In this document: in pieces, positions 3,524 to 44,036 of the stretch | How the letters are laid out: the number at the start of each line of letters is the position of its first letter | Position numbering within the stretch: position 1 is the first letter of the stretch | From: a virus | DNA: 64,000 nt | Virus record (IMG/VR): IMGVR_UViG_3300044624_000801 | Location: 1-64,000 of that record | Direction: 5' to 3' (one strand) | Notes under the pieces: model-generated | What the model was told of the DNA's origin: nothing | What the model saw: the letters and a program-made list of their open reading frames with translations, nothing else | Databases searched by the model: none | Program-made: the position numbers and the translations under genes

Positions 3524-3556
3524 ATACTACCGTGTAACTAAGGAAATAAAAAATAA

Positions 3557-17044: not shown

Positions 17045-17064
17045 TACCAAACCCCTTTATTCTA

Positions 17065-18931: not shown

Positions 18932-21028
18932 TTATCTACCAGTGTAAATGATATAGTTAACTGTCATGTAGGGATTCATGATACTGAAAGCAACCCCTAG
19001 ACTACCAGCAGTGTCAATGCCGCCACTAGTTGGAAGATATTGCCCAGTGCCGGATGCCGTAGGACCTTGTCCTGTGATATAGTTAGTATCAGGAATAACA
19101 GTGCTTGAGTTTCTAAATGCAAAAAACTGTGTTCCTGCATTGGCTCTTAAATCATGTTCGTGATCAGGAATATTAGACAATGTTAAAGATTTTTCAGCAG
19201 TACCAGACCCTGTACCCAGTGTATCAGCAGAAACATCAGTTACTCTATCTGCGTTACCTCCGCCAGCATCAATTAATATAGTCGGGTCAGCAATACTAGG
19301 TACAGTGTTGCCGTTGTCCATATTGTCTCTGCCCAATGCAAATCTTCCTCTTAAATCTGGAAGTGCAAAAGTGGCACTGCCAATAAGCAAAGATGTGGCT
19401 TTGAAGGTATAGCCTATAACTGCAAAAAGTTCAGGATAATCACCGATTCTAATTTCACTACCGTCACAGAACAAATAGCCCAACGGGGGTGCTGAACCAC
19501 CAAAGCCCATAATTGTTCCAATTGGCATAGTTGCTACGCCTTGCAACAGTGTTGTCTTGGTGAGTTTTCTTAATCCTGTACCGGGTCGATTAATTAAAAT
19601 TTCATCATTAAGTTGACTAGTAAGTGTTTCTGTTCGATTAGTTAAAAAATCTTGACTGATAGTAGTGGTAAAAGTTGCAAACCCTGCAGTACTTTGTCCA
19701 TCAAAACTTACAGTGTTGCTGGAAACTTCGCCAGCAAGTTGAAAAACAGTAGGTGAACTTAATTTACTAGCAGATCCTGTAACATTACCAGTAACACTGC
19801 CTGTTAAATTGCCAACAAATTCTTGTGATAAAATTTGATCAGCATATATCCTACGCCATGCTTTGCCGCCAGTCAGCGGTTCTGTTCCTAAATCATAAGT
19901 TCCGTCGGCGTCTGGAATCACATGATATGTAGTCGACGTGCCAGTGACTGCAAAATTACCACCTACTCTTAAATTTTTAGTTATGGCTGCGCCGCCTGCA
20001 GTCTTAATACTGCCCGTGACTAAACTAGTAGAATCAGTAGTTCCTGCAACAATTAAACTGTCACTGATTCTGATGTTACCAGTAACGTCTAACGCTTCAG
20101 CAGGTGCTGTATTGTTAATACCAACAGCCCGTGTGCTGTCGATACGCAGCACTGTAGAAGTTACTCCGTTATTGACTGTTTTAAAATCAAATGCTGATCC
20201 GTTGGCCTTGTTGTTAAATGTAGGGATATTACTGTCAATGGTGATACTTAATTCACCTGAACTACCAACAGTAAGTCCACTGGGGTTTCGAACGTTGAAC
20301 TGAAAATTTGTTGTACTTGCTGTGTCGCCACGTAAAAAACTAGAAGCCGATACTGCATTTCCACCAATTACTAAAGAATCAGCCTTTTCACTAGTGCCCC
20401 AAAACTTGTTTGGTAAACTGTTACTGTTAAAATCTTTACTAGATAGATTAAATCCTTGTCTAATTTCACTAAATCCAGAAATTGTAGATTTTGGAATAAA
20501 TGCATCTTTACTGATAATGCCGACTTTTTCGTCGCCAACAAACAAATTCAATACACTGTGAGTAATGTTACTTGCATCAACAACACTTTCAACTTCGGCA
20601 CCAGTTCTTAATCCACTGCTAAACTGTGGTCCAACCAATACCCAGTTACTGCCGGTGAACAAATAAAGTTGTTGATTATCAGTATCCGCCCACAAATCAC
20701 CTAGATTGCTGTTGGCCACTGCAGGAGCAGTGTTAGATTTTTTAATACTACCAGCAGGAGCCCAAGTTGTGCCGTCATATACCTTTAATTGATTTACCCC
20801 AGCACTGTTATCATACCATAACTGTCCTTCAACAGGATTAGTGGGTGCAGAAGTTTTGGCAAAATTTTCTAAAAGATGTAAAAAATTCTCAGCAATAATT
20901 TGTGCATAGCCAACATAATTTTTTCCCACAAAAGTTACAGGTAATTGTTGGTTAAGAGTTTGATCCTCAACTGTTATATCTGGTTTTTGAGGATTACCTG
21001 TTTCAGTATATTTGATAGTGTATGACAT
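18932..21028 (-). CDS. Tail fibre protein with C-terminal tail-collar domain (698 aa)
   Basis: It begins with the shared fibre domain (FVGKNYVGYAQIIAENFLHL, GQLWYDNSAGVNQLKVYDG). Near the C-terminus, PIGTIMGFGGSAPPLGYLFC and ATFALPDLRGRFALGRDNMD are the tail-collar signature found in T4 gp12 and many short-tail-fibre tips. This suggests the receptor-contacting or tip-folding end of a short fibre. The central region contains repeats of short beta segments (GNLTGSVTGNVTGSASKL). The start overlaps the upstream stop as TAATG. Confidence 0.85.
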   Translation of the reverse strand: MSYTIKYTETGNPQKPDITVEDQTLNQQLPVTFVGKNYVGYAQIIAENFLHLLENFAKTSAPTNPVEGQLWYDNSAGVNQLKVYDGTTWAPAGSIKKSNTAPAVANSNLGDLWADTDNQQLYLFTGSNWVLVGPQFSSGLRTGAEVESVVDASNITHSVLNLFVGDEKVGIISKDAFIPKSTISGFSEIRQGFNLSSKDFNSNSLPNKFWGTSEKADSLVIGGNAVSASSFLRGDTASTTNFQFNVRNPSGLTVGSSGELSITIDSNIPTFNNKANGSAFDFKTVNNGVTSTVLRIDSTRAVGINNTAPAEALDVTGNIRISDSLIVAGTTDSTSLVTGSIKTAGGAAITKNLRVGGNFAVTGTSTTYHVIPDADGTYDLGTEPLTGGKAWRRIYADQILSQEFVGNLTGSVTGNVTGSASKLSSPTVFQLAGEVSSNTVSFDGQSTAGFATFTTTISQDFLTNRTETLTSQLNDEILINRPGTGLRKLTKTTLLQGVATMPIGTIMGFGGSAPPLGYLFCDGSEIRIGDYPELFAVIGYTFKATSLLIGSATFALPDLRGRFALGRDNMDNGNTVPSIADPTILIDAGGGNADRVTDVSADTLGTGSGTAEKSLTLSNIPDHEHDLRANAGTQFFAFRNSSTVIPDTNYITGQGPTASGTGQYLPTSGGIDTAGSLGVAFSIMNPYMTVNYIIYTGR

Positions 21029-21639
21029 TATGCTACCTCACTCAGACCGGTTAAACTTTGAATACGCACAGTATAGTCAATTTGAATAAGTCGGTTTAAT
21101 GATTTTTGCACAGGATGAAAAATTACATGCGTCAATAACTTACTTTGACCCGTGGCGCTGTATGATTTCAGCCCTAGTTCGTCAAAAACAAAGGCACTGT
21201 CAGTGTTACTACTAGTATCAATGGCATCTTGGCCGCTAGGTTCGCCGTAATCTAATAGACAAGTGATAAACACATCCGTGTAGTTAGTACCAGTTACATG
21301 TCGTGTTTCAATTTTATTTCGTGTAGGATCAACATTGGCCACGGCTCTGTCGTCAATTACTTTGGTATAAGTTTGATTGTACAATGCTGCATTGGTGCCA
21401 ACACTGTTGGGAGTCAAATAGGTAATTATACCGGTAGGATCAACGGCTGTGCCGCCGTTACCAAAGGCCATTTCGTAAATGAATCCCTGACCTGAATTGC
21501 CAATGCTATCTGCTAATGCTACACTCATATTCTCATAATGAATGGCATTGCGTTTATTAATGGCAATTTCACCAGATTCGGGGTACCATATCTTGATGTG
21601 TCCCTCGATGTTTAATCCTGAAAAATCTCTGCTAAACAT
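21028..21639 (-). CDS. Conserved-type virion structural protein in the gp8/gp9 position (203 aa)
   Basis: The N-terminus (SGLNIEGHIKIWYPESGEIA, then NKRNAIHYENMSVALADSI) and EMAFGNGGTAVDPTG are features I associate with a conserved structural protein of T4-like marine phages. It lies between the giant gp7-position gene and the fibres, where T4 has gp8-gp9. The sequence is too divergent to equate with either. A late promoter overlaps the end of the upstream gene, and the start has a GAG-type ribosome site. Confidence 0.72.
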   Translation of the reverse strand: MFSRDFSGLNIEGHIKIWYPESGEIAINKRNAIHYENMSVALADSIGNSGQGFIYEMAFGNGGTAVDPTGIITYLTPNSVGTNAALYNQTYTKVIDDRAVANVDPTRNKIETRHVTGTNYTDVFITCLLDYGEPSGQDAIDTSSNTDSAFVFDELGLKSYSATGQSKLLTHVIFHPVQKSLNRLIQIDYTVRIQSLTGLSEVA

Positions 21640-21659: not shown

Positions 21660-21667
21660 TATTTATA
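21660..21667 (-). promoter_or_regulatory. T4-type late promoter overlapping the giant gene's stop codon
   Basis: The minus strand reads TATAAATA exactly at 21667-21660, 21 bases before the ATG at 21639. The last codon of the 4552-aa gene (TAA at 21663-21665) lies inside the box, so promoter and stop codon share bases. Confidence 0.75.
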
Positions 21668-24600
21668 GTGGCCAAACACCGGGCGCTGACTTTATAAAAT
21701 TAGCGATATTGTTGGTGCTATCCACTAAACTGGTGTCAAGATCACTCCACATTTTTCCAATCTTTTTCACAACTACAATCTTGGTATCATCGGGCGGAGT
21801 TGTTGTGAGTCTTACTGTAGAAGTTTCACCGTCAACACTGAATTCTGATTCATATTGTACATCGCCTTCGGGACTTTCTAAATGCACCGTGATATCATGC
21901 AGTTTATAAGGAACTTTCTTCAAGCGATATCCAGCCACAAAAACTTCAATTTGATCACATTGACCAAAATTTGACGGAATAGTGTTTCTATACCAAGGAG
22001 TATATACAGTACTGCCGTCATCAATAGTTGCCGGTGTTGCCTCTGGAACAAAGTTAGTGTGCAGTACATTACTGCTGTCAGTTGAAACAAAAGTTTCTAT
22101 TACTAGTTCGTCCTTGTACGGAATAGTTTCTGAAATACCAATATTGATAATATCTGTACCAGAACGATGCACAGTAGGTACACCTGTACCTAATGTACCT
22201 CTTCGCAATCTACTTAACACGTTGCCAGTTTTAGCAAAATATTCGATACGTTCACCGTTGATATACACAATACCTGGTAAATTTCCTTCAGGATTAGGAT
22301 CGTCTAGTACACTAGCGTTGTCAACTGTTATGCCTATGTCTGTTTGATTTAGATCATTTACAATAAACGTTTGCTTATTTTTATTCAATCGTTTGTAGTG
22401 TGTTCTATTCAGCATGTCTTTGAACTGCATATAAGAGTATTGTTCTGTTACAGCAGTTGGATTATATCCTATCACTGACAATTTGTCATTAGGTAATACA
22501 TCTTTAACTTCTATTGTTCTGCGATCTGCTAACAATTTCCAGTCAACGCTGTGTGTTAACAAATTACCATTTTTAATTACCCAAACAAAATCATCAGACA
22601 CAGTTGTCCTGTCTAAAACAAATAGTCCTCTTTCTTTATTTCTAAAAGTAAAATAATCAACTGTACCTGCAGTCAAACTGATTGCCGATGTAATAGTATC
22701 CGACTTACGTTGAATATCCATAACGTCGTGATTGTAAAAACTAACAATTTCAAATTCAGTTCCCGCTGGCCATACTGTGTTGACAAATTGAATAGTGCTG
22801 GCAGTCATTTTGTATTCTGCATCAGTATCAACTACTACAATTAATTTTCCGTTGTCAATATATTTACTACTGGTCAACACAACACTCACTGTGCCAAAAT
22901 CAAAAATGTATTCACTACCAACAATCAATTGTACTCCATTTAGATATACTTTTAAATTAATTGGGGCAAAAGAATACGGTGCAAATTTATGCTGTGGTAA
23001 CGAATAAATTAAATTGTTGTTAGTCAGTGTAAAATATTCAGCACTAGATGATCGTAAAATTGTTTGTCCAGTACGTACTATAACATTATTTTCATATATG
23101 TCATTGAATCCCACAACGTTTGTTAAAGAATATACAGTTGTAGATCCGTCTGTAACAATAGTTTCAGATTTAACTACGCTTGTTTTTTGTAATTCTGTAG
23201 AGTCATCACTAAAAAATTGTCGCTGAATTAGATAATTTACAATACTGCCAGATGGTGGTGGTGAAACAAATCTTATTCCAACTCGATAAGCACTTTGGTA
23301 TGTGATATCAGTTTGAAATAAATCATAGTTTAATAAATCGCCGTTGACCAATACTATAGATGTAGCGCCAGCAATCCAACTAGTATTGGTAATAAATTCC
23401 ATTGTACTACCATCTCCTACAAAATAATCAAGATCTAAAATGCCTTCGCCATTGAATGAGAAACTAGATACGGCTACATCTGAATCCAGTACAGGAGGTA
23501 CAGTAAACACTACATTTGAATTTTGCCAATCAACAGTATAATCAATGCTTTGTTCTTTGACGATGCCGTTGACTAATACTGTAATTGCCTGTTTAGAATT
23601 AGCATATTGTTTTAAACTAAAGTTTACATTAGTGCCATTGCCTTTGTAGTTGTTCCATTTAATTTTGGCACTGCCATCTCTGCTCATTGCATAAACTTTG
23701 ATAGCCACTGCATCTAAAATTTGTCCAGGGACTAATTCTTCAGGACCATGGCTGGTATCAGGAGTAACAAAATTATCACCATCTAATATAATATCATCAG
23801 GTGCAATACCAGTAGCGGTAGTGTACGCTAAGTTTCCGCCTTGTAAAATAGTATCATATTCATTTTCATTAGGTAAGAAACTGCCGTCGCTTGTGCTCTT
23901 ACGGAAAATAATCTTGTCCCCATCGTTGATGTTTAATGGATACGGATCTGTTAGATTAGGTAAATCTATAACATTTGTTATTCCGTCTCCAATAAAGGTA
24001 GACATTACTACCCAATCTTGTGCTAATTTTCTACCGTTGGGTTGAATAGTTGAGCCATCATATAGATCAAAATATGGATCATCTATACGTAAACCATTTA
24101 CATAGATGTTGATTTCTTGACCCAGTGTTGGGGTGTAAGGCAGAGTGAATACATAGGTGCTGTCGCCAACGGTTACTATATAATCATCAAAAGCAGCATC
24201 AAAGCCGTCCCACTGATCAGAAAACCAAGGCAGTGCATCCCATCCTGCACCGGCACCAAATCCTAAACCAGTAACATTGACGCCGCCGTAATCAACACCT
24301 ACTAAAAGTTGTCCAAGGTCGTTGCCTAACTGTCCTGTTGTAGGATTGTAAAAGAAATTAATTCTATCTGCCGCAGATAATAATGTAACATCTTTATAAT
24401 AATTTACTGAAACTGTTTCTCCAATGGCTGGGGCTTCATCCAAAGTAAGAACACTGTAATATGCAGTATATCCTCTAGTCACTGAAGATTTTTTAGTTAT
24501 TGTATAATTTTCTCTCAGAATTTCTTGGCCTGCTACAGTTATTGTAGATTTACCAACTTTAACATCAGCGGGCCACTTTAATATAAACTGTTTTAAACTT

Positions 24601-27600
24601 CCAGATCCAGTAAATGTTTCAGTTTCTGTAAGTTCGGTGATATAATAATTTTTACTAGTTCTGTCAAACTTTACAGACACATGCATAGATCGTACAACTT
24701 CACTTTCTATAATAGCAACTGCTTGTGCAGCAACTCCGTTTTCAGCAAGGCCGCCATCTAATATCACTGTAGGCGCTGACAAGTAACCTGTACCAGGATT
24801 AATAATTTTAATTCTGTTTACTTTTCCGTTGGCAATAAATGCTGATGCAACTGCTCCAGTGCCGTTACCAGAAATTCTTACCACAGGTGGAATAACATAG
24901 CCGCTGCCACCGTTGACAATTTCTATAGATTTAATTTTAAATCCAACATTGTCGTACCAGTTTTTCCAAGGATATTCTAACACTTGAGAACTGTTATAAA
25001 TTACAGTGTTATCAATATATCTAACATTTATTGGTTCAATTTTTCCTTCGCTGTTATATACTTGAGGCAAATCAAAATCTGAAATCATTGACGGTGCACC
25101 ATCTACTTTACTGTATGCACTGATATATTCTCGAACTTTGGTTCTGTAAGGTTTAACTTCGTTAATATAATCTTCATAATTTTCAAGATTATCATTGTTG
25201 TAGTTTACTTTTTGCTTTAGTTCTCCAGCATTGTGTGTTGCTTTAATAAAACTAGTTTTCATTAGCCAGTCAAGATACGACTGTTCACTGAGTGCATATC
25301 TAAACCCAACAAATAATAAATCTAACCAGTATTGTCTATAGTTGTCAACGAATATCTTGTTCTTTAAAGTTTCTAAAATAATGCGTAATTCGATTGTGGC
25401 TGAATTGTCATAACTGTTATTGTCATATAATCCTCCATCGAAAGTCAGTAGACTGTTTGTTAGTTTATAAAGACTAGAACTAAATTCTATTGTGCCGCGT
25501 TGACGACCAATAACTTTATAACTCTGAGTATAATCTTGACTGTTTACCTGTGCATATTTTTCTAACAATAGCCAGCCACCAGTCCCAACGTTGAAAACTT
25601 TGACAGTCTCACCTATGTTTGACTGTATCAATGGAATTTGATAAGTGTAATTTACACTGTAATCTATTTGAGTAAACTGATTGTATCCTTCAGCAAACCA
25701 ATCAATATAATTCCAGAAATTAGTTACATCGTAACTTTGACTTTTTACACGACTCCAAGTTAGAGATCCAGTGTCATAAGCATATACACTCCATCTGTTT
25801 AGTGCTTGACTATCTGACGTAACCAACACACTGTAAGGTCGCACTGACAGTGTAGTAGATGCCGTATAACCTATGCCACTGTTCAACACAGTCACTCCTG
25901 TTATTCTACCTTGTGCATCCAATGTAGTTTTTAACGAAGCATCTATACCCTTGCCTGAAATTTTTACATACGGGGCATTAGTATATCCAATTCCAGAATC
26001 TATCACTGTGGCACCTATAATTTTTCCGTCAACAATGATAGGCGTCAGTCTAGCAGACCGTAATCCGTTTGTAGATATAAATCTAATTTCTGCATCAGTG
26101 TCTAATACTCTGTCGTATACTCCTCTGGATGCTGCAGGAATATTTTCTGCTTGTTGTAAATCTGTTAGATCAAAATCATCAACCACTAATAAATTCTGTA
26201 GTATGCTGTTGGTACGTTCAATAACTTGTTTTAATGCTTCGTATCTATAGACAAACATACTTTGTCTTGGTCTAAATTCAATTCCATATTTTTTCTTAAC
26301 TGGTAAATTGATATCTGGCACAAGTCTATCATTTTTGTCTTTTCCGACAAGACTGTCAATCCATTTATTTTCAATAGCAGCCGGCACAATGCAGTCTGCA
26401 TCTTGTCGTATTAACTTCCACTGACTGTGAATGTTTACAGTATCATTGGGTACTAGCCAATACTGTACATTTAATTTAACACTGTCTGCAGACAACAGAT
26501 TTTTGCAATTAAACAAATGAATACTATTTGCCGAACCGAATGCTACAAATTTGTAATTTTGAGATTTTGGATCAGAGATCAATCGACTTACGGCTAATGC
26601 AGAAAGTGTTCGACCCTCTATATTTGCAGGAATAGTAGTTTTGTTTTTTACCCAAAAGTAATAACTGGTTTTGAAATTTTTAGTTTGCGTGTCATATCTA
26701 CGCTTTGTGCTGACAATGTTATCACCATATCTGGCTTGGCCACTAATTCCTTGCGCCAATCCTTCTTCAGTATCTGCAAGTTCATTCCATCGCGAAGGAG
26801 TAAATTTACTTTTTACCCATTCAAACACATCTATGCTGGCAGTTTCATACAGCGTGTTCCAGGTGGTATTTCTATATGCAACATCACTGTCGTAATGATC
26901 TAGAAACTTTGCACGAGTCAGATCCCACCACAATGTGCCTACAAATTTATCAGTCCAATTGGCGCCATCATCTACTATTACACTGTCAATACCTGTGCTG
27001 TAAGTTGCAGGATCGTAATATGTTTTGTACTTTATTTCTTGATCTGCAACTCCTGCAATTTTTCCCCTAATAGGATCAATAGTATCAATATAACTGATTA
27101 ATTGATTAGTATCAGCATTATAAAAATATAACTTTTTAATCTTATCAATGTCAACATAGTCCGCTTGCTGATGCAGAATAGACCAACTGTAACTAGTACC
27201 TGGACGATTATACAACCATATTGCACCGGCAGACGGTAAATTATTATAAGTTGCTAACGGCGCAGACACTAGAACATTGTATCTTGATGTTTCTATTACA
27301 GAACCATATCCATCATCTTGTATTTCTAGATAAGTTTTTAAACTTTCACCATATACATAGTTGTTTAGATATTTGTCATAGATATCAACCCGGCCACTGT
27401 CAACGAATGTGTCTGTCAGCGACATGTTGTTTCCGTCGAACGTAGTTGGTGTGGCCAAACTGATATCAAACGTAATTGTTATTGAACTGTCGCCACGTTT
27501 GGCAAAAATTGCTAGAGATTTGTCGTCATCAAAAAATCTCACCGTGCTGCCAAATTGCTCAGCAACTTCTGCATATTTCTTTTTAATAATTTGTAAATCG

Positions 27601-30600
27601 TCAAATCTATTTAAAGTATTGTTGTAATTAAAAACAAACACCGCACCCTGATCTGATGTTTGATCATCATACAATATTGATCCCACTGCCAGTGTACTGC
27701 CAGATCGGGTTAATGAAACACTTTCGCCAAATCGGCACTGTTGGTCTATGTTGAAATCTCTACTGCTGAGAGTATCAATCAATTGAAAAGTGTCTTGGGT
27801 ATAGGTGTACACAAACACTTTACCCTTGTCAATTGCTGTTAAGTCTAAAGGTGTCCATTTATCATAATTGAAATTTCCAGCATTAAAAATTTTAGTAGAA
27901 TCTTCTATTGCTGTGCTGTCACCTTCTTCACCATAAGGGCCTGTAAATTGCCAGTATTGACCATTATAAATTACTATTTCGCCAATAAAGTAGGCCATGT
28001 CACTACGGTATGGACCTTTGTATCCGTCGTAATTGAGATTGTCACTGTGTGGGGCCGACGCAACCAACATTGATCCGTCTGTTGATAGATCAAACTCATA
28101 ACCAAATTTGTCGCCGGCAAACACAGACTCTACATTTTCTGATTGTAGTAAAGTTGTACTGCCATCGTTTATTACTTGTTCATCTATATCCAGTGTTGTT
28201 ATCAATTTAGGAACAAAACATTGTATATTTGTGTTGTCTATTTCTTGCCATAAACTAGGATTGTTTTCAAAAGGATCTGTTGGCACTTGTGCAATTGCTT
28301 GGTATATCTTGAAATCATAATACACAATGTCACCGACATTATATTCAAATCCTGGATTATGATAACCACGATATGCTCTGTTGTAATCCATGTGCCACTC
28401 AAAGCCGCTGTCTACAGATACATCGCCGTATCTAAAGAAATACAAGCGACCTTGATTGGCGTTGGTACCGGGGCTGCTAATTACCGCTAGATATTCACCA
28501 TTGTTTTCTGTGATTTTTATTTTTGATCCAAACAATTCACTTTGTGCAGGGTACGGACTTACAATAGAGTGATTTAAAATGTAATTTCCAGTATCGTCTC
28601 GTTGGTAGATATACACCATACCCTGATTGGTCAATCCGCTGCCAGTGCCCGACAACTCAGCCTCAATTAATCTTGCTGGCTCCCAGTCGTCAAGAAATTC
28701 AGTAATAACAGCACTGTCTGCACCTAAATTATACATTGCTCGCCAATGCGATAATCCGCTTTGTACTATTGCACCTTGTGGATAACTTTGTGGAAATTGA
28801 AGATTACCAACAAACTTTGTTTTAACATCCGTAGCAGTAGGTGCACCTACGAACAACCATCTAGCATCTTTACTTAAAGTCACAGATGCTCCAAATCTAT
28901 TACCTGCTGCAGATAGATTTTGCAGTTGTTGAATTGTTTGTTTTTGTACCCAATTACCTTCAGGACTTTTTGCAAAAATAAACACAGATTGTAATGCAGT
29001 CGAAACTGCCATAGTATTTGCAGCGTCATCGATAGAAAAACTTGTTCCAAATTTTTGCTGTGCAACAGGCAAACCCTGATCCATTTGGTCTATTGAGAAA
29101 ACTGAATTATTTTGCCAAACCGTCCATTTGTTGTTGTTGTCTGTCCACAACAACTCATTTCTTTTTAAATTTTCAGGAAGACGATCATTGGCGTCATCAA
29201 TGTTGGTTTCTAATCTAGCAGATACAAATTTATAAACCAGTATCTGACTGCTGTCTCCAGCATCGTGAGTACCTTTGTTAGTATTTGTTAATGTTATTTT
29301 TCTTCCTACAATTTGAGAAATTTTGTAGAAACCGTTCAGACTAACAGTATTAGCAATGCCAATGATATCGCCCACTGCAAGATCTGTAAGTTTTGAAAAA
29401 TCAAGTTGTACTGTTGTAGTAGTAGTTTCTATTACTTCAACGCTGTTGACTATTTTAGTATATCTATAAACGTTCCAATCTATGCCGTCAAACACTGTCC
29501 AAACATAGTCGCCTTCTTTCAAAGTCACAGACGAGTTTGCAGGCAACAATAAATCTGCCAACGAATCAATATTCAATGCCACATCATTATATCGCACATA
29601 GCCGGCATTTCTTAACAATTTCGAAGATGTTGTTAGTGTTGGCCAGAAATCATATGTAAAGTTTACTGGTTTTAAATATATGTCGTTGATATTTTGTCTA
29701 ATTATAAAATCAACATTGTCAACTGATGTGTTACTAGTCAGTTCAAGGCCTTGTGGATTTGTTTTAAATTGTTCTTCATCTAAAGTAAATTCAATTTCTT
29801 CATAGGCGGCACTGCCACCGTATTGTCCTACACGAACTGCCCATTCTTCGTCAAGTGTTAAACTTTCTTGAGTAGTTGCACTTAAAACATCAAATAATTT
29901 ATTGAATACATTTTCTGTACCCTTTTCAATAATCATGCCTTGATAAAATTTATATTGGCTGACATCGTCTTTGATTATGTTTTCAAGATAGGTACGCTTT
30001 TGATATCCAATAAGGTGTTGTGCAACCTTTTGCTGATTGGTATCAAAATTGTCAGTATTTAAATCGTAGAAATCATTAAACTGTTCGGCCTTGTAATCCC
30101 AGTTAGGCAATAGACCTTTTTGAGGCTTGTCTTCTAATATATTCCAATTGTCGTTGTCGAATTCTAAACTACCCGGAGTAAATTTCTTTGCTGCGTAGTA
30201 ATATTGTTTATATTGTACAATGTCTCCTAGATAGTAATCAGTCCAAGATTTCCAAACTTCAACTTTGGCTTCGTCATATATAAATCCTGGAATGTTAAAA
30301 CCACCATCCCAATTGTTGGAAAGATATCCCAACACTTTAATTCTTTCTTGTCTGTATCCAGGTTGTAGATCATAAATCACATCATTAAACTGTGTGATAT
30401 TATCTAACAACAATACATGTTCTTTTTGTATGAGATAAAAAGATGCACCATATATTCCTTGCCCAGTATTTTTTGGCGATAATGAGTAGACATTGTCTTC
30501 TCTATTAGTGTTGATAAAGTCAGCAGACAATGGCTGGCCGTCACTTTGTAAAATAGAGTAAGGATAAAATATATCAAAAATATTGTTAATTTGTGCAAGT

Positions 30601-33600
30601 TCTGTTCGCAAGGAAATTTTCAATGCACTAGGACTCAAACACAATACTGTGCCAACAGTCCAATTCTGTGTTAACCAGAATGCAAACTCTTTAGCACTGG
30701 TTTCCCAGTTGGTTATTGTGTTAAGTGCAGAGTTGAAACTGTCAAAAATAAATCCTAATGTTTCTAAACGTTTACCGTAGCCGATTAGAAAATCTACAAC
30801 ATCTTGATACTCTGTAAATTTTGTTCCGTACGGTACTCTAGTAATAGAAGTTGCAAAAGACTTTTTAATCACAATGTCTCTGCCGCCAGAGATAGGCAAA
30901 GCACTCAGTCTAATAAACTTAGTTTGATCAAAACTGTCGGTACTGGTGTGTGAAACAGTGCATTTAAAAAATTGATTATTTTCTCTAACAATTGTTTGAA
31001 TACGATAAACTTGGCCAGCTGACCAATTTAGAAACGATTCACTTATACCCCCGATATTCACTACTCGGCCAGCACCTTGAGGTTGATAATAATCAAAATA
31101 CGGATCATCAAAATTATATCCGCGGACTTCAAATCCGTCAACAGACTTTTGTATTACTACACCGCTATAATTTATTTTTTGTATTGGCGAGTTAGTGTTT
31201 AAGAAAATATCATAATTTTCGTCAGGCACAAATACATTTGATGTACTAGACGGACTCTTGCTATCTAACAGTAACCTAAATTTTTCTTTACTAGTGAATC
31301 CACCTAACTTACTAGTTAATCCGCATGTGATATTTTTAAGATCATATTTGTAACCATTGTAAATTTCAACATTAACTCCTGTTTGCGAATCTACAATCCA
31401 ATTGATAATTCCAGCAGTATATGTTCTATCAGTAGACTGCACAGTTGCCGGCAAAATTATGTCTTTAAATTTTATTCTTAAATTAGTGTCAGCATAAACA
31501 AATTGTCCTGTAAGATTTTTTACAGTACGTGATCTATCAAGATAAAGGCCTAATGTCTTATTAGGATACATCAACAATGCGGTTTGTATTACTGCAAATG
31601 CATAATAACTAGATCGTGACCATGCAGTTTCTGTAGGGGCGCTGTCTCCGAACACAAAATCATTGTTAGCGTCAACTTGAATAAATCCAAAAATTGAATT
31701 ACTCAGCAAGGGGCTTGTCAAGTTTCCATCCTGATCAACTGGGATTCTTGACAACAACCCGGGTCTTACAAATTTTTCTCGAGTAACTACAGGTGTATTA
31801 GGTTCTCTAACATAGCCGTTTTGCAAATCTTCCCAAAGAATTAAGTTATCCGAAGTATACGGTCTTGGACCGTATACTGATTGCCACCAACTAGGTTCTA
31901 TACTAAATCCTAAACATTCCCAAGGATGAGTATGAGGCCTATCAGTGTCTAATAGATATCTGTAAATTCCTCTCCAAAATCCAGGACTGTCTTCCCCGTT
32001 AGGCAATTTATTTTGATTGTAATTAAAAGTAAAAGGATCTAATCTATCAAAAAAATCATTTACGACAATATTATTATCTATTAATGATGCCCATCGATAA
32101 AAACTACCGCTCAAGATATCTAAAAATTCTTGACGAGAATATTCTGTTGCTCGAGAATACCCTGGAATAATATCATAGATATCTATGATTTCAGAATCAT
32201 AGTTGACTTTTATATTATTGTAAATTCGTTTTTCTAATTCTAATATTAAATCATCTCGGTAATCATTAAATGCCAAAGTTATACTACCGTCGTGACCTTG
32301 TATTACTCGAGTAGATTCTAAATAGGTGTCATCATTATAAATTTCAGGAACAAATTTTGGATACAGTCCTAACTTAGACGGAGTAGATGGGATAAAACAT
32401 CCGTCAGTAGAATCATATTCTGCAATGTCAATTGTATCACCTTCGGCTAAACTTATAAGAATGTTTACAAATCCCTGACTATTGAATTCATAATCTTTTG
32501 CAAAAATAAGTTGTTCGCCATTTAGATATACTAATACAGCATGATTCGACAGCGTCGACATATCAAAATTAAAAGACAAAGGATATGTTGAAATCTCAGA
32601 ATCTAGTACAGTGAATTGATAATTCTGTAAACCGGTATGAGGCACCATATCACTGAGATAATATTTTTCAGTATTAGATTTTGATTTATTAATTTCATTT
32701 AATACTAAATCTACAAAGTCTCGAGGAGTAGTGTCAATGCCGAGATTTTCAGCAGTCATTAAAAAATTTCTTTTGAATTTGCCGTAATCATCTCCCGCAG
32801 TATCAATTGCATTTACGGCGTTCGATGTTCTACTGCCAATATGATACAAACTGTTAACCAAGGGGCCGCTGTGTTGAATGAACCGTGTGCCGTACTGTGC
32901 AATTGAACCTAAATCTCGTAAATTATTGTTTCCAGGAAATACTCCTTCAAAATTTGTAAGATTGTTGATAATGCTGTCAACATGATTATTAACTTGTCCC
33001 AATGTAAAAATGTTGACATTTTCATTCAATGGATTGTTTTGTAGACTAACTGGTAACTCATAATATCCGTTGATGTTTTTTGCTTGAGTAGCCAATGTTT
33101 TTATCACAATAACATCATTGAGATCAGCACTGACATTTAGTACAATGTATTTGAATTTGATACCATCTTCAATTACATATTGTGTATTTGATAATCTGAT
33201 TCCATTTAGATATACACTGACTCTTAAATCTGCAAGATCATTTATATCATCATACACATCTATATTAAAATTATTTGTTTGGACTTGACCTTTATAAATT
33301 CTAATAACTCTTTGAAAATCGTCGTAGTAATTTGTTATCCATCCGTTAGTGTAAGTCTCAGTGTCATCTAACACAATTTTTAAATAATTTGTTGACACAT
33401 CGACTGTTATTAATTCAGCGGCTTGTTTGTAAGAAAATTTATCTGTTGTATAATTAAAATTAAAAACCACATCTCCAATGTTGTTGATGTTTCTATATGT
33501 CAATGGAAATTTTAATACACTATCATCAATTCCTGTACCTCGTTGATAGGAAAAAACTTTTGTACCTACAAACGTACTGCCTTCGTATTTGTTAATGTCC

Positions 33601-35321
33601 GATATACCAACGTTATCGTTGTCATAAACATCAAATAATACATCTTGATTTATGCTGATTTTTTCTTGGCCTAATTTCCAAGTAGCACCGTCAAACCAAT
33701 ACATCTTGCCTTGATTGGTTCCTAGTTTAACCAATACTGTTTGATCCCGTTGAGGCTCTGTATCATCAACTTCGATTAATGTTATTTGTTTTTGACGACC
33801 TAATCCGAATTGTACTTCGATAAATTTTACTTGAAAAATTCTACCCACTACTCTAATGTCAGTGTCAGCAGTAACTAACAATCTGTGTCCGTCGGCTAAA
33901 TTAACTCCGTCTACATTATATCCTAAACTGCCTTCGATAGTACTGAAAACATCAGTAGTAAACGTATCAATCAAGTCGATATTTTTTTTGGCGTTGGTTC
34001 CAAAATTATAAAGTTTAATTCCAGCCGCAAATTCAATAATTGGTCGCTTGGCTCTTGCGCTCTGATCTAACTCTGTTGTTATTCCGTTGATCGTAGATGT
34101 AATATCTATAATGCCTTTATGAAACCATCTGTTATAACGACTCCACGGATTTCTATCTGGGCTTGCTCGATTAACTGTAATATAGTCTTGATCTCCAGCA
34201 AATGCAGTAGCATCATCGAATGGTAATTCATCGAATGCTGTGTCATCAAACAACACTGATCTCTGCTCGCTGTAACCACTGACAATTTCTAAATCATCTG
34301 CAGACACTAAACGAATTTTATCACCAACTCCCTCAACATACCAATATCCTAAAGCATATTTCGATGGCGATACCTCGCCAACAAAGTTTACTTTCATGCC
34401 ATTACTAAGCGGATATCCATTACCCATGGTATATGTTTTTTTGCCTATAATTTCTTCGTCAACATCAATTTCTGTATTCTCTTCTATATTTTGAATTTGT
34501 AATACGCCACCGACATTGACATCATCTTCGCTGACATAGAATAAAACATTAGGGGCATCTAGCGGAATTTCAAAAGTCAATATTCCAGACTCTACAGCAG
34601 TTGCTCCACTATCATCAACTGATATACCCGAAGTATATCGACTCAGTGTTCCACCTATTCTCTGAGTTTTGATACTAAATGCTTGGTTTGGCGCTGTAAC
34701 ATTAAATTTGTATGTTTGGCCTCTGTATAATTTTAATACTGGATTTCGAGTCAGTCCATCAGGATTAAAAATATAAGCAAAATTATCTCCCTCGTCTACT
34801 AAACTTACAGTGTATTCGCTTTGAATTGTTTTTTGTTGGCCGTAAACTGGGATAGCAGCAGGTCCGTAAGGCAACCAATAGTATTGTTGAAAATTTACAA
34901 ACTTATCCCAATCTATCAATGGATTCCAACTGTAAAATTCTTGTTTGTTTAATCTACGATGATTATTTGTTATACCACCTTGCACACTAATATGGTTGAT
35001 ATGATCTAGATAATCTTTGTTAAACACAACATTATCTAGATCATCTTTGATGATAGCACTGGGTTCTAATTGATAATTTTGTCTGTCAGTAGTAGAAGTT
35101 TGAACAAAGATATCATCAGCAGTGGTGGCTTTGCTGTCTTGACGACCAATAAATCCGTTGACTTTTTTTACAGTGCCAGGCTGTAACAATTGTTCTAATG
35201 TAGCGTGAACAAATTTTTTGTTGCTGTCAGATCTATAAAAACGAGGCAGTAGGCTAGAAATTTTTCTTGAAGAAGGATCTATCGGAACTGGGTATTCGTT
35301 TTGACTGTTGTCGTATGCCAT
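21663..35321 (-). CDS. Giant baseplate-associated virion protein in the T4 gp7 position (4552 aa)
   Basis: One uninterrupted frame of 13.7 kb follows gp6 by 9 bases, the place T4 gp7 (1032 aa) occupies. The N-terminus (SSLLPRFYRSDSNKKFVHAT, LEQLLQPGTVKKVNGFIGR) resembles the start of very large structural proteins of T4-like marine phages. Residues ~2085-2700 hold seven FG-GAP-like repeats. Residues ~3090-3165 and ~3460-3535 hold GxGY-type repeats (GSGYVIPPVVRISG, GTGYLSAPTVILDG). VYLNG/VLVNG beta units occur near 710, 930, 3745, 3925, 4000, 4130, 4250 and 4350. It is likely a wedge or a large surface appendage. Homology to gp7 itself is not evident by eye. The start has AAAGGT upstream. Confidence 0.85.
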   Translation of the reverse strand: MAYDNSQNEYPVPIDPSSRKISSLLPRFYRSDSNKKFVHATLEQLLQPGTVKKVNGFIGRQDSKATTADDIFVQTSTTDRQNYQLEPSAIIKDDLDNVVFNKDYLDHINHISVQGGITNNHRRLNKQEFYSWNPLIDWDKFVNFQQYYWLPYGPAAIPVYGQQKTIQSEYTVSLVDEGDNFAYIFNPDGLTRNPVLKLYRGQTYKFNVTAPNQAFSIKTQRIGGTLSRYTSGISVDDSGATAVESGILTFEIPLDAPNVLFYVSEDDVNVGGVLQIQNIEENTEIDVDEEIIGKKTYTMGNGYPLSNGMKVNFVGEVSPSKYALGYWYVEGVGDKIRLVSADDLEIVSGYSEQRSVLFDDTAFDELPFDDATAFAGDQDYITVNRASPDRNPWSRYNRWFHKGIIDITSTINGITTELDQSARAKRPIIEFAAGIKLYNFGTNAKKNIDLIDTFTTDVFSTIEGSLGYNVDGVNLADGHRLLVTADTDIRVVGRIFQVKFIEVQFGLGRQKQITLIEVDDTEPQRDQTVLVKLGTNQGKMYWFDGATWKLGQEKISINQDVLFDVYDNDNVGISDINKYEGSTFVGTKVFSYQRGTGIDDSVLKFPLTYRNINNIGDVVFNFNYTTDKFSYKQAAELITVDVSTNYLKIVLDDTETYTNGWITNYYDDFQRVIRIYKGQVQTNNFNIDVYDDINDLADLRVSVYLNGIRLSNTQYVIEDGIKFKYIVLNVSADLNDVIVIKTLATQAKNINGYYELPVSLQNNPLNENVNIFTLGQVNNHVDSIINNLTNFEGVFPGNNNLRDLGSIAQYGTRFIQHSGPLVNSLYHIGSRTSNAVNAIDTAGDDYGKFKRNFLMTAENLGIDTTPRDFVDLVLNEINKSKSNTEKYYLSDMVPHTGLQNYQFTVLDSEISTYPLSFNFDMSTLSNHAVLVYLNGEQLIFAKDYEFNSQGFVNILISLAEGDTIDIAEYDSTDGCFIPSTPSKLGLYPKFVPEIYNDDTYLESTRVIQGHDGSITLAFNDYRDDLILELEKRIYNNIKVNYDSEIIDIYDIIPGYSRATEYSRQEFLDILSGSFYRWASLIDNNIVVNDFFDRLDPFTFNYNQNKLPNGEDSPGFWRGIYRYLLDTDRPHTHPWECLGFSIEPSWWQSVYGPRPYTSDNLILWEDLQNGYVREPNTPVVTREKFVRPGLLSRIPVDQDGNLTSPLLSNSIFGFIQVDANNDFVFGDSAPTETAWSRSSYYAFAVIQTALLMYPNKTLGLYLDRSRTVKNLTGQFVYADTNLRIKFKDIILPATVQSTDRTYTAGIINWIVDSQTGVNVEIYNGYKYDLKNITCGLTSKLGGFTSKEKFRLLLDSKSPSSTSNVFVPDENYDIFLNTNSPIQKINYSGVVIQKSVDGFEVRGYNFDDPYFDYYQPQGAGRVVNIGGISESFLNWSAGQVYRIQTIVRENNQFFKCTVSHTSTDSFDQTKFIRLSALPISGGRDIVIKKSFATSITRVPYGTKFTEYQDVVDFLIGYGKRLETLGFIFDSFNSALNTITNWETSAKEFAFWLTQNWTVGTVLCLSPSALKISLRTELAQINNIFDIFYPYSILQSDGQPLSADFINTNREDNVYSLSPKNTGQGIYGASFYLIQKEHVLLLDNITQFNDVIYDLQPGYRQERIKVLGYLSNNWDGGFNIPGFIYDEAKVEVWKSWTDYYLGDIVQYKQYYYAAKKFTPGSLEFDNDNWNILEDKPQKGLLPNWDYKAEQFNDFYDLNTDNFDTNQQKVAQHLIGYQKRTYLENIIKDDVSQYKFYQGMIIEKGTENVFNKLFDVLSATTQESLTLDEEWAVRVGQYGGSAAYEEIEFTLDEEQFKTNPQGLELTSNTSVDNVDFIIRQNINDIYLKPVNFTYDFWPTLTTSSKLLRNAGYVRYNDVALNIDSLADLLLPANSSVTLKEGDYVWTVFDGIDWNVYRYTKIVNSVEVIETTTTTVQLDFSKLTDLAVGDIIGIANTVSLNGFYKISQIVGRKITLTNTNKGTHDAGDSSQILVYKFVSARLETNIDDANDRLPENLKRNELLWTDNNNKWTVWQNNSVFSIDQMDQGLPVAQQKFGTSFSIDDAANTMAVSTALQSVFIFAKSPEGNWVQKQTIQQLQNLSAAGNRFGASVTLSKDARWLFVGAPTATDVKTKFVGNLQFPQSYPQGAIVQSGLSHWRAMYNLGADSAVITEFLDDWEPARLIEAELSGTGSGLTNQGMVYIYQRDDTGNYILNHSIVSPYPAQSELFGSKIKITENNGEYLAVISSPGTNANQGRLYFFRYGDVSVDSGFEWHMDYNRAYRGYHNPGFEYNVGDIVYYDFKIYQAIAQVPTDPFENNPSLWQEIDNTNIQCFVPKLITTLDIDEQVINDGSTTLLQSENVESVFAGDKFGYEFDLSTDGSMLVASAPHSDNLNYDGYKGPYRSDMAYFIGEIVIYNGQYWQFTGPYGEEGDSTAIEDSTKIFNAGNFNYDKWTPLDLTAIDKGKVFVYTYTQDTFQLIDTLSSRDFNIDQQCRFGESVSLTRSGSTLAVGSILYDDQTSDQGAVFVFNYNNTLNRFDDLQIIKKKYAEVAEQFGSTVRFFDDDKSLAIFAKRGDSSITITFDISLATPTTFDGNNMSLTDTFVDSGRVDIYDKYLNNYVYGESLKTYLEIQDDGYGSVIETSRYNVLVSAPLATYNNLPSAGAIWLYNRPGTSYSWSILHQQADYVDIDKIKKLYFYNADTNQLISYIDTIDPIRGKIAGVADQEIKYKTYYDPATYSTGIDSVIVDDGANWTDKFVGTLWWDLTRAKFLDHYDSDVAYRNTTWNTLYETASIDVFEWVKSKFTPSRWNELADTEEGLAQGISGQARYGDNIVSTKRRYDTQTKNFKTSYYFWVKNKTTIPANIEGRTLSALAVSRLISDPKSQNYKFVAFGSANSIHLFNCKNLLSADSVKLNVQYWLVPNDTVNIHSQWKLIRQDADCIVPAAIENKWIDSLVGKDKNDRLVPDINLPVKKKYGIEFRPRQSMFVYRYEALKQVIERTNSILQNLLVVDDFDLTDLQQAENIPAASRGVYDRVLDTDAEIRFISTNGLRSARLTPIIVDGKIIGATVIDSGIGYTNAPYVKISGKGIDASLKTTLDAQGRITGVTVLNSGIGYTASTTLSVRPYSVLVTSDSQALNRWSVYAYDTGSLTWSRVKSQSYDVTNFWNYIDWFAEGYNQFTQIDYSVNYTYQIPLIQSNIGETVKVFNVGTGGWLLLEKYAQVNSQDYTQSYKVIGRQRGTIEFSSSLYKLTNSLLTFDGGLYDNNSYDNSATIELRIILETLKNKIFVDNYRQYWLDLLFVGFRYALSEQSYLDWLMKTSFIKATHNAGELKQKVNYNNDNLENYEDYINEVKPYRTKVREYISAYSKVDGAPSMISDFDLPQVYNSEGKIEPINVRYIDNTVIYNSSQVLEYPWKNWYDNVGFKIKSIEIVNGGSGYVIPPVVRISGNGTGAVASAFIANGKVNRIKIINPGTGYLSAPTVILDGGLAENGVAAQAVAIIESEVVRSMHVSVKFDRTSKNYYITELTETETFTGSGSLKQFILKWPADVKVGKSTITVAGQEILRENYTITKKSSVTRGYTAYYSVLTLDEAPAIGETVSVNYYKDVTLLSAADRINFFYNPTTGQLGNDLGQLLVGVDYGGVNVTGLGFGAGAGWDALPWFSDQWDGFDAAFDDYIVTVGDSTYVFTLPYTPTLGQEINIYVNGLRIDDPYFDLYDGSTIQPNGRKLAQDWVVMSTFIGDGITNVIDLPNLTDPYPLNINDGDKIIFRKSTSDGSFLPNENEYDTILQGGNLAYTTATGIAPDDIILDGDNFVTPDTSHGPEELVPGQILDAVAIKVYAMSRDGSAKIKWNNYKGNGTNVNFSLKQYANSKQAITVLVNGIVKEQSIDYTVDWQNSNVVFTVPPVLDSDVAVSSFSFNGEGILDLDYFVGDGSTMEFITNTSWIAGATSIVLVNGDLLNYDLFQTDITYQSAYRVGIRFVSPPPSGSIVNYLIQRQFFSDDSTELQKTSVVKSETIVTDGSTTVYSLTNVVGFNDIYENNVIVRTGQTILRSSSAEYFTLTNNNLIYSLPQHKFAPYSFAPINLKVYLNGVQLIVGSEYIFDFGTVSVVLTSSKYIDNGKLIVVVDTDAEYKMTASTIQFVNTVWPAGTEFEIVSFYNHDVMDIQRKSDTITSAISLTAGTVDYFTFRNKERGLFVLDRTTVSDDFVWVIKNGNLLTHSVDWKLLADRRTIEVKDVLPNDKLSVIGYNPTAVTEQYSYMQFKDMLNRTHYKRLNKNKQTFIVNDLNQTDIGITVDNASVLDDPNPEGNLPGIVYINGERIEYFAKTGNVLSRLRRGTLGTGVPTVHRSGTDIINIGISETIPYKDELVIETFVSTDSSNVLHTNFVPEATPATIDDGSTVYTPWYRNTIPSNFGQCDQIEVFVAGYRLKKVPYKLHDITVHLESPEGDVQYESEFSVDGETSTVRLTTTPPDDTKIVVVKKIGKMWSDLDTSLVDSTNNIANFIKSAPGVWPL
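27250..29065 (-). repeat. Seven FG-GAP-like protein repeats in the giant protein
   Basis: Repeat starts along the protein read FGTSFSIDDAANTMAVS, FGASVTLSKDARWLFVGAP, FGSKIKITENNGEYLAVIS, FGYEFDLSTDGSMLVASAP, FGESVSLTRSGSTLAVGS, FGSTVRFFDDDKSLAIFA and YGSVIETSRYNVLVSAP. The pattern FGxxxxxxxxxxxLavgaP is that of integrin-alpha FG-GAP blades. Seven copies would make a complete seven-bladed beta-propeller of about 600 residues. Confidence 0.65.
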
Positions 35322-35330
35322 TGTTTACCT

Positions 35331-38300
35331 TTAAGAACTAGAAATTTGATTTTTGTTTGCAATTTTTTCGGTTGTCGTAATTGCACCGATGGCTTTTATT
35401 TTACTTGCTGTAATACTGGATACAATTTCGATATCATCAACTGTTGCTCCATTTACAAAAATTTCATCTTTTTCACATGTGATTTCAAACAAACTACCAA
35501 AATATAAATTGTCTGCTTTGGGCACAATGACGAAACTCACTATAAACGGTGAAAGTTCTGCTAATACAAATGTTGATAATTCCCCGAAATAAAATGTATT
35601 TCCAAAATCCCAATTTTCAATTGAGAAAAATTTTGTTATAGAATTTAATATTCGTGTTTTAACATCATTGTCACTGATAACTTGTTCTGTGTTTTTTACC
35701 ACTTTGAATGTGGCCTGCAAATCTATTTTTGCAAGACTGCCAAACAATATTTTAAATTTCACAGGATGATAAATGATTTCGTCACTTATAGATTTAATTT
35801 TTCTTAATGTAGGATGAAGATCATTATATAAACTGTCACTGCTAGGAGGTAGCGGTTCTTCTTCGATTGAACCGTTGACATATTGTCTATATGCAGTGTC
35901 GTATTCTTTAGTTAAAATAAAAATATCAATAATGTTTGTAATTCCAGGATCAATTCTAGTTTCATAATCTGCATTATGAATATACTGGAATTTTAATCTA
36001 TCTCGACCAACTAATACTTTGTATTGCAAACTTGGTATCAGCGTAGACGCAACTTTGTCTAATTTTTTTACTACATCAGTGTCAATAAAATAAAAATGTT
36101 GTGCTTCTACGTATTGAGAATAAGAAGAAATTGAGGTCTCTGACGGTAAAATTATAACTACAGGATTAGTTAAATCATTATAGATGTATCGATAATCTTC
36201 CTGACGATCACCGATAGTATATTTTTCTTGTATAATATATTTTCTCTGAAGGACTTCAAGATTTGTTTCTGTAACAGAAGGAGGATCAACAATATCATTA
36301 AAGATATCTGGATTATCTACAACACTGTCTTCGTCCGTATCGGTAAAAGTAATTTCAATTTTCTTAGTGTCAACGTATCCATCTAATCCACTGTATTCTT
36401 TGAGAATAGACCAATCTCTATCAAAAGTATAAGCAGAAGTCAATGGTGCGGGCGCAGTGTTTATACTTAAAACTTTTATCTTATCTTTGGCCACTGTGTT
36501 TGTTCTAGTGTCATAAATTTTATCACTGCTGTCGTAATAAAATCTAATTTGTTGATCACTCTCAAATATGTAACGAAGTTTTCTAGAATTAACTGTGTAA
36601 AATTCATCGTCTGGTGTGAACAAAATTAACCAACTAGAATCTAACTTTTGATTAGATCTGTCACCTGCTTTACCTAGACTAAACAGATTAGACACATTTA
36701 AATTTTGTTCAAAAACAATTTTCCAAGTTCTAGTTGTTCTGTCATATCTCAGACCAAATGGTCTATTATCAAACACTAGATCAATAATAGTTGTAATTGT
36801 GCTGCTTTCGATTGTATTTTTATATTTAGGAATAATTCTAGATAATCTAGCATCATTAGGAACAATGTCATTTAATATAATAGGACCAAAACCGGTAGAC
36901 AAAGTGCCGGTGTTGTTGGCAGTGCCGTCACCGGTCACAGATACAACTTTAGTCCATAATACTGTAGATCCGTTAGATGGAATTCCGCTTGACGGAATTG
37001 TTTCTAATTTATTATTGGAAGATTTATTGAAATACTGACCAGTAGGCGCAGTAAATTTAACCAATGCTCCCGATTCAACATAAGTTAAATCAGTGCTGGT
37101 AAATTGTCCGGTTGCATACGGAATAGTGTCTACTATATTTCCAAAATATCCAGTGCTTTGATTAGTGTCTACTGTCTTAGAATACCATCTTGAAATAATA
37201 GTTGCAGATGTATCAATTTCGTAATTGGCATAGAAATAATTTTTTAAGTTATCATCTTTGATAACATTGAATAATTGATTATAAACTACAAACTCAATAT
37301 CAGTTTTAGTCACATAAGAAAATCTAAAACTGTCAGAATACAATTCTTTATAAACTACGCCGTCATCAGAAAATAAATTTGTTTTACTGTATTTTCCTGT
37401 AGGATCCACTAGATCAAAATAACGACTTATTCCGCTGGAACTTCTATTAACTGCTTTGATCTTGAGAATTTCCTGACTCACTGCTAAAGGACTAATATTA
37501 TAATCCTCTCCTGTGATCATTCTATTTTGAGTGTAATAACTGGCCGGCGCATTAGTTTTGATACTGTCATTAGTTTCTGTGGCGGCTGCATTGACCACAG
37601 TGGACAACAAACTCATGTTAATTGTTAATACTTCAATTTGACCTGTATTACTGACATAAGAAATATCCACACTTACTGAACGAATGTCTTTGGGATTAAT
37701 AGTGTAGGAAAATCCATTGCTGGTTCTATAGTAGATTCTAAAAGTGCCTAATGGCAACGTGCCGAATACTCCGTCAGAAAAATTCAAACTTATTCTATCA
37801 CCAACACGGGTAATGACACTATAGATGTTTCTTATATTTTTTTCTAAACTGTTGTAAATGGTGTTGTTGCCTTTGAAATCAGATACCGGAGCCCAGTACT
37901 GAGATTCTCTACCGTTGTTGTCTAATTTGTATAGCCATACATCTGTGTTGTTGATGTTGGCAGCATCTATGTCAACAATTTCATTTGACCCTGGTTGATC
38001 TAGTGTAAATGTGCCGGTATTAAGTTGGCCCTGTCTAAAGTGAAAGAAAAATCCAGTGTTACTTGACCCAGTGCCCTTGCCATCATCCTTGTAGATAAAA
38101 GCAGGTGTTACGCCCAATGCTGGTGGCTCTTCTTTCACCACGGAATTCAACGTGTCTATAACTGTGCTGGTAATTTCAAATTGCATGTTTCGGCCATCAA
38201 CTGCTTTAGTAAACCCAAACACTGGCACATCGGTGCTGATGCCTTTAAATCTATACTGCTCTGTAGGAACTCCTACTATGGTGGCCTTGGCATCAGGTTT

Positions 38301-38859: not shown

Positions 38860-39303
38860 TTAACTTATTAGACCATTGTCTTGATCAAATTTAAATTGCA
38901 AACTTTCACTTATATTGAAATTTAAATATACCAATTCACATTCAATTTGTATCCCACTTTCGTATTGATTTACAATGATTTGGTCGGCCTTGATCCGAGG
39001 ATCGTAATTTATAATATCTTCAACATTTTTTACAATGGCATTTCGAACTTCGGGAGTAAATGGTTCATACAATAGGTCCCAAATCACTGTGCCAAATGTT
39101 GGATTTTCTAACTTTTCGCCTTGGCGAATGTGAAAATGATTTACTATGTCTTGTTTGATCAATGCGAGATCATACAATCCAAAATTTTCAGTAGCATTAC
39201 TAATTGTACTGAAACCTTTGTAAATTTTTGTGTTGGGAGTTTGTTGAGATTGACCTGGTCCCTTGACTGTGATTCTATTATATAATCTGTTGTTGATTGT
39301 CAT
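38860..39303 (-). CDS. 25: Baseplate wedge protein gp25 (147 aa)
   Basis: The GPW/gp25 signature is clear: LIKQDIVNHFHIRQGEKLEN followed by PTFGTVIWDLLYEPFTPEVR and VEDIINYDPRI. T4 gp25 (132 aa) sits at the core of the wedge and helps initiate sheath polymerisation through its EPR-like segment; here the equivalent reads YEPFTPEVR. The length is close to T4's. The ATG overlaps the upstream spike gene's stop (ATGA). Confidence 0.93.
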   Translation of the reverse strand: MTINNRLYNRITVKGPGQSQQTPNTKIYKGFSTISNATENFGLYDLALIKQDIVNHFHIRQGEKLENPTFGTVIWDLLYEPFTPEVRNAIVKNVEDIINYDPRIKADQIIVNQYESGIQIECELVYLNFNISESLQFKFDQDNGLIS

Positions 39304-43727: not shown

Positions 43728-44036
43728 TCAAATTCCCAATGTTGAAACTAATCCAGATTTTTTAGGGATAAAAATCTGAGTACCTGCAATAAAATCAAAC
43801 ACAGGATCTTGTATTATATCTAGATTTCGTTGTGCAAATACCCACCAAAGTTTGGATGTGCCATACAGATCAAACGACAACAGATCAGGTCTGTAGGTAT
43901 ATTGAGGTTCAATAGTGTAAAGATAATCATCTTGTTCTGCAGACACTGGTCTAATTTTTAATATGTCAAGATAGTCCTTGGCAATTCTAGTAGAAAACCA
44001 AGGACTGGTGTTAGTATAGATGCTGTTAACTGACAT
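43728..44036 (-). CDS. 53: Baseplate wedge protein gp53-like (102 aa)
   Basis: PQYTYRPDLLSFDLYGTSKL, followed by WWVFAQRNLDIIQDPVFDFI and GTQIFIPK, is the gp53/LysM-like wedge signature. T4 gp53 (196 aa) joins wedges during baseplate assembly. This version keeps only the core and lacks the T4 C-terminal extension, which is common in marine relatives. Start and upstream stop overlap as TAATG. Confidence 0.85.
   Translation of the reverse strand: MSVNSIYTNTSPWFSTRIAKDYLDILKIRPVSAEQDDYLYTIEPQYTYRPDLLSFDLYGTSKLWWVFAQRNLDIIQDPVFDFIAGTQIFIPKKSGLVSTLGI

Follow-up and report, generated by a model that had tools for sequence, protein, structure and literature searches.

The 4552-residue virion protein encoded in the gp7 gene position of this viral DNA is best explained as a baseplate wedge subunit of the gp7 type that has grown about fourfold, a reading to which we assign a probability of about 0.62. 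The proposed location of the gp7 core within the protein is the new part of this reading; giant proteins of this kind in the gp7 place were already known. The window analyzed, 64,000 nucleotides long, is most of a 66,923-base IMG/VR virus record.

The giant gene is one ATG-started frame of 4552 codons (window positions 21663-35321, minus strand) coding for a protein of 513 kDa. It occupies 21% of the window, and this share, together with the PHROG matches of its neighbors, confirmed the initial annotation of a 13.7-kb frame that fills more than a fifth of the window after gp6 and before fiber genes. At the window GC content of 37.5%, the probability of a chance frame of 4552 codons is ~10^-137. 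Near-identical copies spanning residues 1-4552, with 100% in the best segment, were found on three other viral contigs, showing that faulty assembly of this record does not account for the frame; in relatives at about 45-50% identity the frame was likewise unbroken across 4200-4900 codons. An origin of the frame by chance or through a mis-assembled fusion has nothing in its favor beyond sheer size and a few metagenomic relatives broken in two frames. It is refuted by the intact frames in many independent contigs and isolates and by the peptides recovered from virions of a relative (see below), and we consider it virtually impossible. In four metagenomic relatives the giant frame was split into two or more long frames, probably because of assembly or sequencing indels. 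A blastn search with 7322 bases of the gene against phages gave no match, and self-comparison of the protein for internal repeats returned no rows.

On the minus strand, the giant gene is preceded, in this order, by genes for a gp53-like baseplate wedge subunit (43728-44036; phrog_7145), a gp5-like hub or tail lysozyme (39300-41267; phrog_13211, phrog_430), a gp25-like wedge/sheath initiator (38860-39303; phrog_261, phrog_43) and a gp6-like baseplate wedge protein (35331-38813; phrog_10646, 960 bits; phrog_219, 67.5 bits). It is followed on the same strand by a gene for a conserved 203-aa protein in the place of T4 gp8 (21028-21639; phrog_11259, 239 bits), by one for a collar-domain fiber protein (18932-21028; Pfam Collar and tail fiber PHROGs) and by two more for fiber-like proteins whose N-termini match the same PHROGs (17079-18926 and 15593-17050). 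Genes for the portal, the major head protein, a late sigma factor and gp46/gp47-like proteins, located elsewhere in the window, identify the virus as a T4-related myovirus.

Several other genes in the region were recorded. A gene of ~198-201 aa, likened to phrog_11259 by place and size, lies shortly downstream from the giant in PA5oct (gp357, marked ESI-MS/MS), SCTP-2, Phosso, Vibrio 2.275 and Atu_ph07. Downstream from the fiber genes of the window are five head-to-tail genes (10020-14213, minus strand), four without a PHROG match and one with a weak match. On the plus strand, a 1159-aa protein without a PHROG match is encoded ahead of the portal gene (52093-55572), with a 15-bp tandem repeat of 3.9 copies at 53860-53918, and a 296-aa protein, also without a PHROG match, is encoded in the head gene block (58243-59133), with 27-bp tandem repeats at 58384-58479.

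Profile comparison places the giant protein in a known, widespread jumbo-phage family, phrog_10938 ('virion structural protein'), which it matched with 1074 bits in four stretches. A tblastn search with residues 1-1686 detected 61 phage records (at least 80% of the query covered in 17 of the 61, all below 60% identity). Ten jumbo-phage records were opened, and the relatives in them span 3313-4555 aa: PA5oct, 3857; Atu_ph07, 4449; RaK2, 3326; Phosso, 4555; SCTP-2, 3807; CBB, 3340; GAP32, 3341; Vibrio 2.275, 3771; 121Q, 3323 as annotated or 3333 from an earlier start; and XacN1, 3313. With 4552 aa, the window protein stands at the long end of this range. The isolate proteins (PA5oct gp355, Atu_ph07 gp180, RaK2 ORF070, CBB_236, GAP32_230 and 121Q 582) are homologous to it over most of their length at 20-27% identity, are virion proteins and share its gene place. 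In all ten records the giant adjoins the gp25/gp6 position, the order that is found in the window, and in eight the adjacent upstream gene is annotated as baseplate wedge or gp6. The exceptions are Vibrio 2.275, whose upstream gene is annotated by a carbohydrate-binding module, and SCTP-2, where gene 141 (stretch L041, 24272-33562) in the gp6 position codes for a hypothetical protein of 3096 aa, itself a giant, with no BLAST similarity to the gp6 of the window at E 1e-3.

A profile scan of viral contigs confirmed at least 593 relatives among the matched stretches listed, which number at least 599; 80 relatives were kept. The PA5oct and Atu_ph07 proteins, used as further queries, added few or no contigs. 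In an alignment of 20 family members, residues 1-2000 and 2700-3660 were mostly shared and residues 2100-2700 were the least occupied. Sequence searches, including four with alignments of residues 1460-2000, 2690-3460 and 1-200 and of the cyanophage core, found no confident PDB relative. The family is thus widespread in viral metagenome contigs and without a confident PDB relative by sequence.

Presence in the virion, implied by the initial annotation, is supported for relatives. CBB_236 was detected in virions by mass spectrometry with 21 peptides and 7.72% coverage, according to a passage of the CBB report (PMC5259590), and the record of PA5oct gp355 carries an 'ESI-MS/MS' note. Among cyanophages, the counterpart gene SSM1_102 of S-SM1, the phage with a 6180-aa giant, is marked T4-GC 969, and an excerpt of a 2010 paper (PMC3037559) places T4-GC969 in S-SM1 virions. 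A virion protein could, instead of being a wedge component, form a structure added to the surface, for example tail whiskers or a skirt at the far periphery, and whisker-like structures are mentioned in portions of the descriptions of CBB and Atu_ph07 (PMC5259590, PMC6102473). However, the family also occurs in PA5oct-type phages; MIJ3 is described with a collar, a spiky baseplate and thin long fibers, whiskers being unmentioned in that part of its description; and the gene has the position and synteny expected for a wedge gene. We therefore regard an appended structure as improbable.

T4 gp7 has 1032 aa, in agreement with the ~1030 stated in the initial annotation, which had regarded a protein four times larger as unusual. 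This view of the size did not hold. All eight annotated cyanophages opened encode a protein of 3007-7312 aa directly after gp6, which in two of them is annotated gp7. In Sf-CH5 this is a 4878-aa 'baseplate wedge subunit' that matches phrog_2885 (also 'baseplate wedge subunit') with 3238 bits. The sizes of the other seven, computed from annotated coordinates, are 3007 aa in S-SSM7 (annotated gp7), 4314 in S-CAM7, 4225 in ACG-2014f, 4067 in SynMITS9220M01 (annotated baseplate wedge initiator), 6180 in S-SM1, 7312 in P-SSM3 ('similar to gp7') and 6817 in ACG-2014d. A ninth record, AG-345-E02, carries no annotation and lies outside this count. With the ten jumbo phages, these cyanophages show that a giant protein in the gp7 place is neither new nor rare; proteins of 3000-7300 aa are the rule there in the phages opened, and size itself was rejected as a novelty.

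Two further records were noted. In S-SSM7, two closely spaced giant genes, of 3007 and 3001 aa by coordinates, both carry the annotation gp7 (stretch L169, 13075 onward; SSSM7_103). The megaphage LR756511 was rejected as a carrier of a giant after gp6, the longest open frame in the 40-kb stretch having 1641 codons.

Assuming the copy number of T4, six copies of the window protein would weigh 3.08 MDa, against 0.72 MDa for T4 gp7. It is a fair inference that a wedge protein of this size would imply an enlarged baseplate.

The cyanophage giant gp7 proteins (phrog_2885; S-SSM7, P-SSM3, Sf-CH5) resemble the window protein in standing directly after gp25-gp6, in sharing some small repeat domains and in carrying a short box of the pattern FY..KGT..S...LF..LYG, but the two kinds of protein have no global similarity. 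In the window protein this KGT box covers residues 1772-1818 (29868-30008, minus strand) and is the sole part for which a link to cyanophage gp7, and from there to T4 gp7, was detectable: the T4 and cyanophage boxes matched each other with a probability of 97.2 and a pairwise E of 3e-11. The family profile was scanned in 298 overlapping windows of 81 residues, with 200 column shuffles for comparison. With the cyanophage gp7 box as query, the box of the giant (residues 1772-1813 in this match) took ranks 1-6 with a score of 26.1, the next unrelated window scoring 15.1; none of the 200 shuffles reached the score of the giant's box, and the same was found with a narrower cyanophage profile. A combined T4 and cyanophage profile placed the box at ranks 1-5 of 298 when all 127 rows were used and at ranks 1-4 when the window protein and the ten isolates alone were used, with 0 of 200 shuffles as good.

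The match extends over 18-42 columns, with giant-versus-cyanophage hhalign probabilities of only 9-59% and pairwise E values of 1e-4 to 4e-3, marginal over ~300 overlapping windows. Since the box is short and the absolute probabilities are in this range, we grade the support for the KG[TI] box of the gp7 core in the giant, via cyanophage gp7, as moderate. In the 20-sequence alignment, the K and G of the box were invariant, and the box was nearly invariant across the family, including the distant forms of RaK2, Atu_ph07 and XacN1. In the giants with a pattern match it lies at 1474-1887 (2335 in XacN1), the strict pattern having missed 8 of the 20 giants. In the cyanophages it lies at 194-202, after a short insert, or at 697-707 (S-SM1, P-SSM3 and ACG-2014d), in contrast with about 1800 in the window protein.

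T4 gp7 itself shares with the window protein the gene order 53-5-6-7 and a short KG box, connected by way of the cyanophage proteins; it differs in length and in the lack of significant direct sequence or profile similarity, full-length or in the box. Whole-protein hhalign against a 28-sequence T4 gp7 profile gave a best probability of 0.1%. Sliding 300-residue segments likewise failed to connect the two, the best value (1.7%) falling at residues 3026-3077, away from the box, and the giant box against T4 gp7 alone reached up to 3.4%, with 19 of 200 shuffles as good. The conserved N-terminal residues 1-60 (35142-35321, minus strand) are proposed to supply helices of the core bundle. Their helix-turn-helix ranked first against the core bundle with the narrow cyanophage profile and fifth, with 5 of 200 shuffles as good, with the broader one; joining the N-terminus to the box did not lengthen the match. 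Synteny and, by way of the cyanophages, the box speak for the position after gp6 and the wedge identity proposed in the initial annotation; direct similarity to T4 gp7 does not. Desulfovibrio phage 7757, which gave a weak gp7 match, was left out of the analysis. Our literature search found no paper plainly about a gp7 link of the jumbo-phage giants, which is not a claim that none is in print.

A separate observation concerns the T4-like contig IMGVR_UViG_2974739009_000001, which apparently carries two gp7 copies with 80% identity to T4, ~14 kb apart; this appears to be a duplication or an assembly artefact.

The domain content of the protein is of the kind found in fibers and adhesins. A carbohydrate-binding module 5/12 was identified at residues 1432-1462 (30936-31028; Pfam PF02839, with a structure match to chitinase modules), and VIA-align rows indicated a second CBM5/12-like module at residues 1688-1731 (30129-30260; model residues 677-724). 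The variable region of low family occupancy at residues 2100-2700 (27222-29024) contains an FG-GAP repeat of beta-propeller type (PF14312, residues 2530-2564), which had no such Pfam counterpart in PA5oct, RaK2 or Atu_ph07, and a possible chitin-binding-like module at residues 2320-2360 (phmmer 2rts, E 0.16). A GGSGY-type repeat region at residues 3462-3540 (24702-24938) is common to cyanophage and other tail proteins, and residues 4304-4378 (22188-22412) resemble a small domain that interrupts the core of cyanophage gp7. All these features are on the minus strand.

The CBM5/12, FG-GAP and GGSGY domains, as well as the lack of a significant direct match to T4 gp7, are what would be expected if a giant fiber- or adhesin-like virion protein unrelated to gp7 occupied the gp7 gene position. 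In that case gp6 by itself or some other small protein would complete the wedge, and chance or a common small motif would explain the KGT resemblance. Against this stand the near invariance of the box in the family, the fact that the cyanophage gp7 box matches it best, and the adjoining gp25/gp6 position in every jumbo-phage record opened. We consider an unrelated protein possible, though distinctly less probable than an enlarged gp7-type subunit.

AlphaFold models were obtained for residues 1010-2010 (72 sequences, mean pLDDT 75) and 2690-3560 (68 sequences, mean pLDDT 80). Foldseek against the PDB gave no match with E up to 0.001 among 388 and 264 matches, respectively. The conserved module at residues 2690-3460 (24942-27254, minus strand) was modeled confidently without a clear PDB match. 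The VIA rows of the first model corresponded to the CBM5/12 modules and to weak Ig-like or other small domains. The top row, a baseplate chain of phage Milano, aligned with an rmsd of 30.8 across two separate modules, and was for that reason taken as no more than CBM-type similarity. The Foldseek and VIA matches listed for the two models contained no gp7, gpI or TssG chain, a result that excludes nothing, as the box was modeled at low confidence.

Residues 1770-1779 were the best-conserved block of the 1,001 residues of the first model, with a mean column identity of 0.92, and the blocks of the box region (identity 0.92 and 0.87) had pLDDT values of 29-47 although helical. The correlation of block conservation with model confidence was -0.39 for the first model and -0.03 for the second. 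The highly conserved residues 1743-1841 (29799-30095, minus strand) are helical in the model with pLDDT under 50, and residues 3350-3409 (25095-25274, minus strand) form a second highly conserved stretch that AlphaFold fails to place. Being conserved yet of low pLDDT, both may be interfaces that fold only with their partners, and residues 1743-1841 are likely to be the gp6-contacting segment.

In the enlarged gp7-type subunit, what can still be recognized of the gp7 core would be residues ~1772-1818; in contractile systems, the wedge arises by joint folding of this core and a gp6 dimer. Inserted or appended domains, among them the carbohydrate-binding modules and the FG-GAP region, would account for the ~1700 residues ahead of the box and the ~2700 beyond it. 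By analogy with T4, one copy would be present per wedge and six per baseplate. The giant would nucleate the (gp6)2-gp7 wedge through a presumed contact with gp6, and its extra domains would build the outer baseplate, carry the fibers, which may dock there, and passively touch surface glycans; upon adsorption, the wedge ring would open and sheath contraction would start.

A minimal form of this plan is found in Vibrio phage XM1, whose gp7 homologue gp17, of 242 aa, can be likened to the giant on the basis of excerpts of its published description (PMC10457771). There, a discontinuous core domain is formed by residues 1-79 and 107-133, and two sets of tail spikes are anchored on the inserted loop and on the C-terminal tail. 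The simplest account is that the giant would follow the gp17 plan with a far larger insert and tail. A more detailed and rather doubtful version is that the outer baseplate of the jumbo lineage has been taken over by a single polypeptide: its gp7 core would be split, with its first helices N-terminal and the KGT box ~1700 residues later, and the inserted or appended domains would replace periphery proteins of the T4 gp8, gp9 and gp11 type.

If this is true, insertion at the spike-docking point of minimal phages would make giant size a repeated, independent outcome of the insertion of receptor-binding modules, with one permissive site used in jumbo phages and twice in cyanophages (box at ~200 or ~700). 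Should the KGT box correspond to the gp7 core, it would show where in these proteins of 3000-7000 residues the wedge interface is to be sought, and it would suggest that the baseplates of jumbo phages and cyanophages grew by the enlargement of one wedge subunit.
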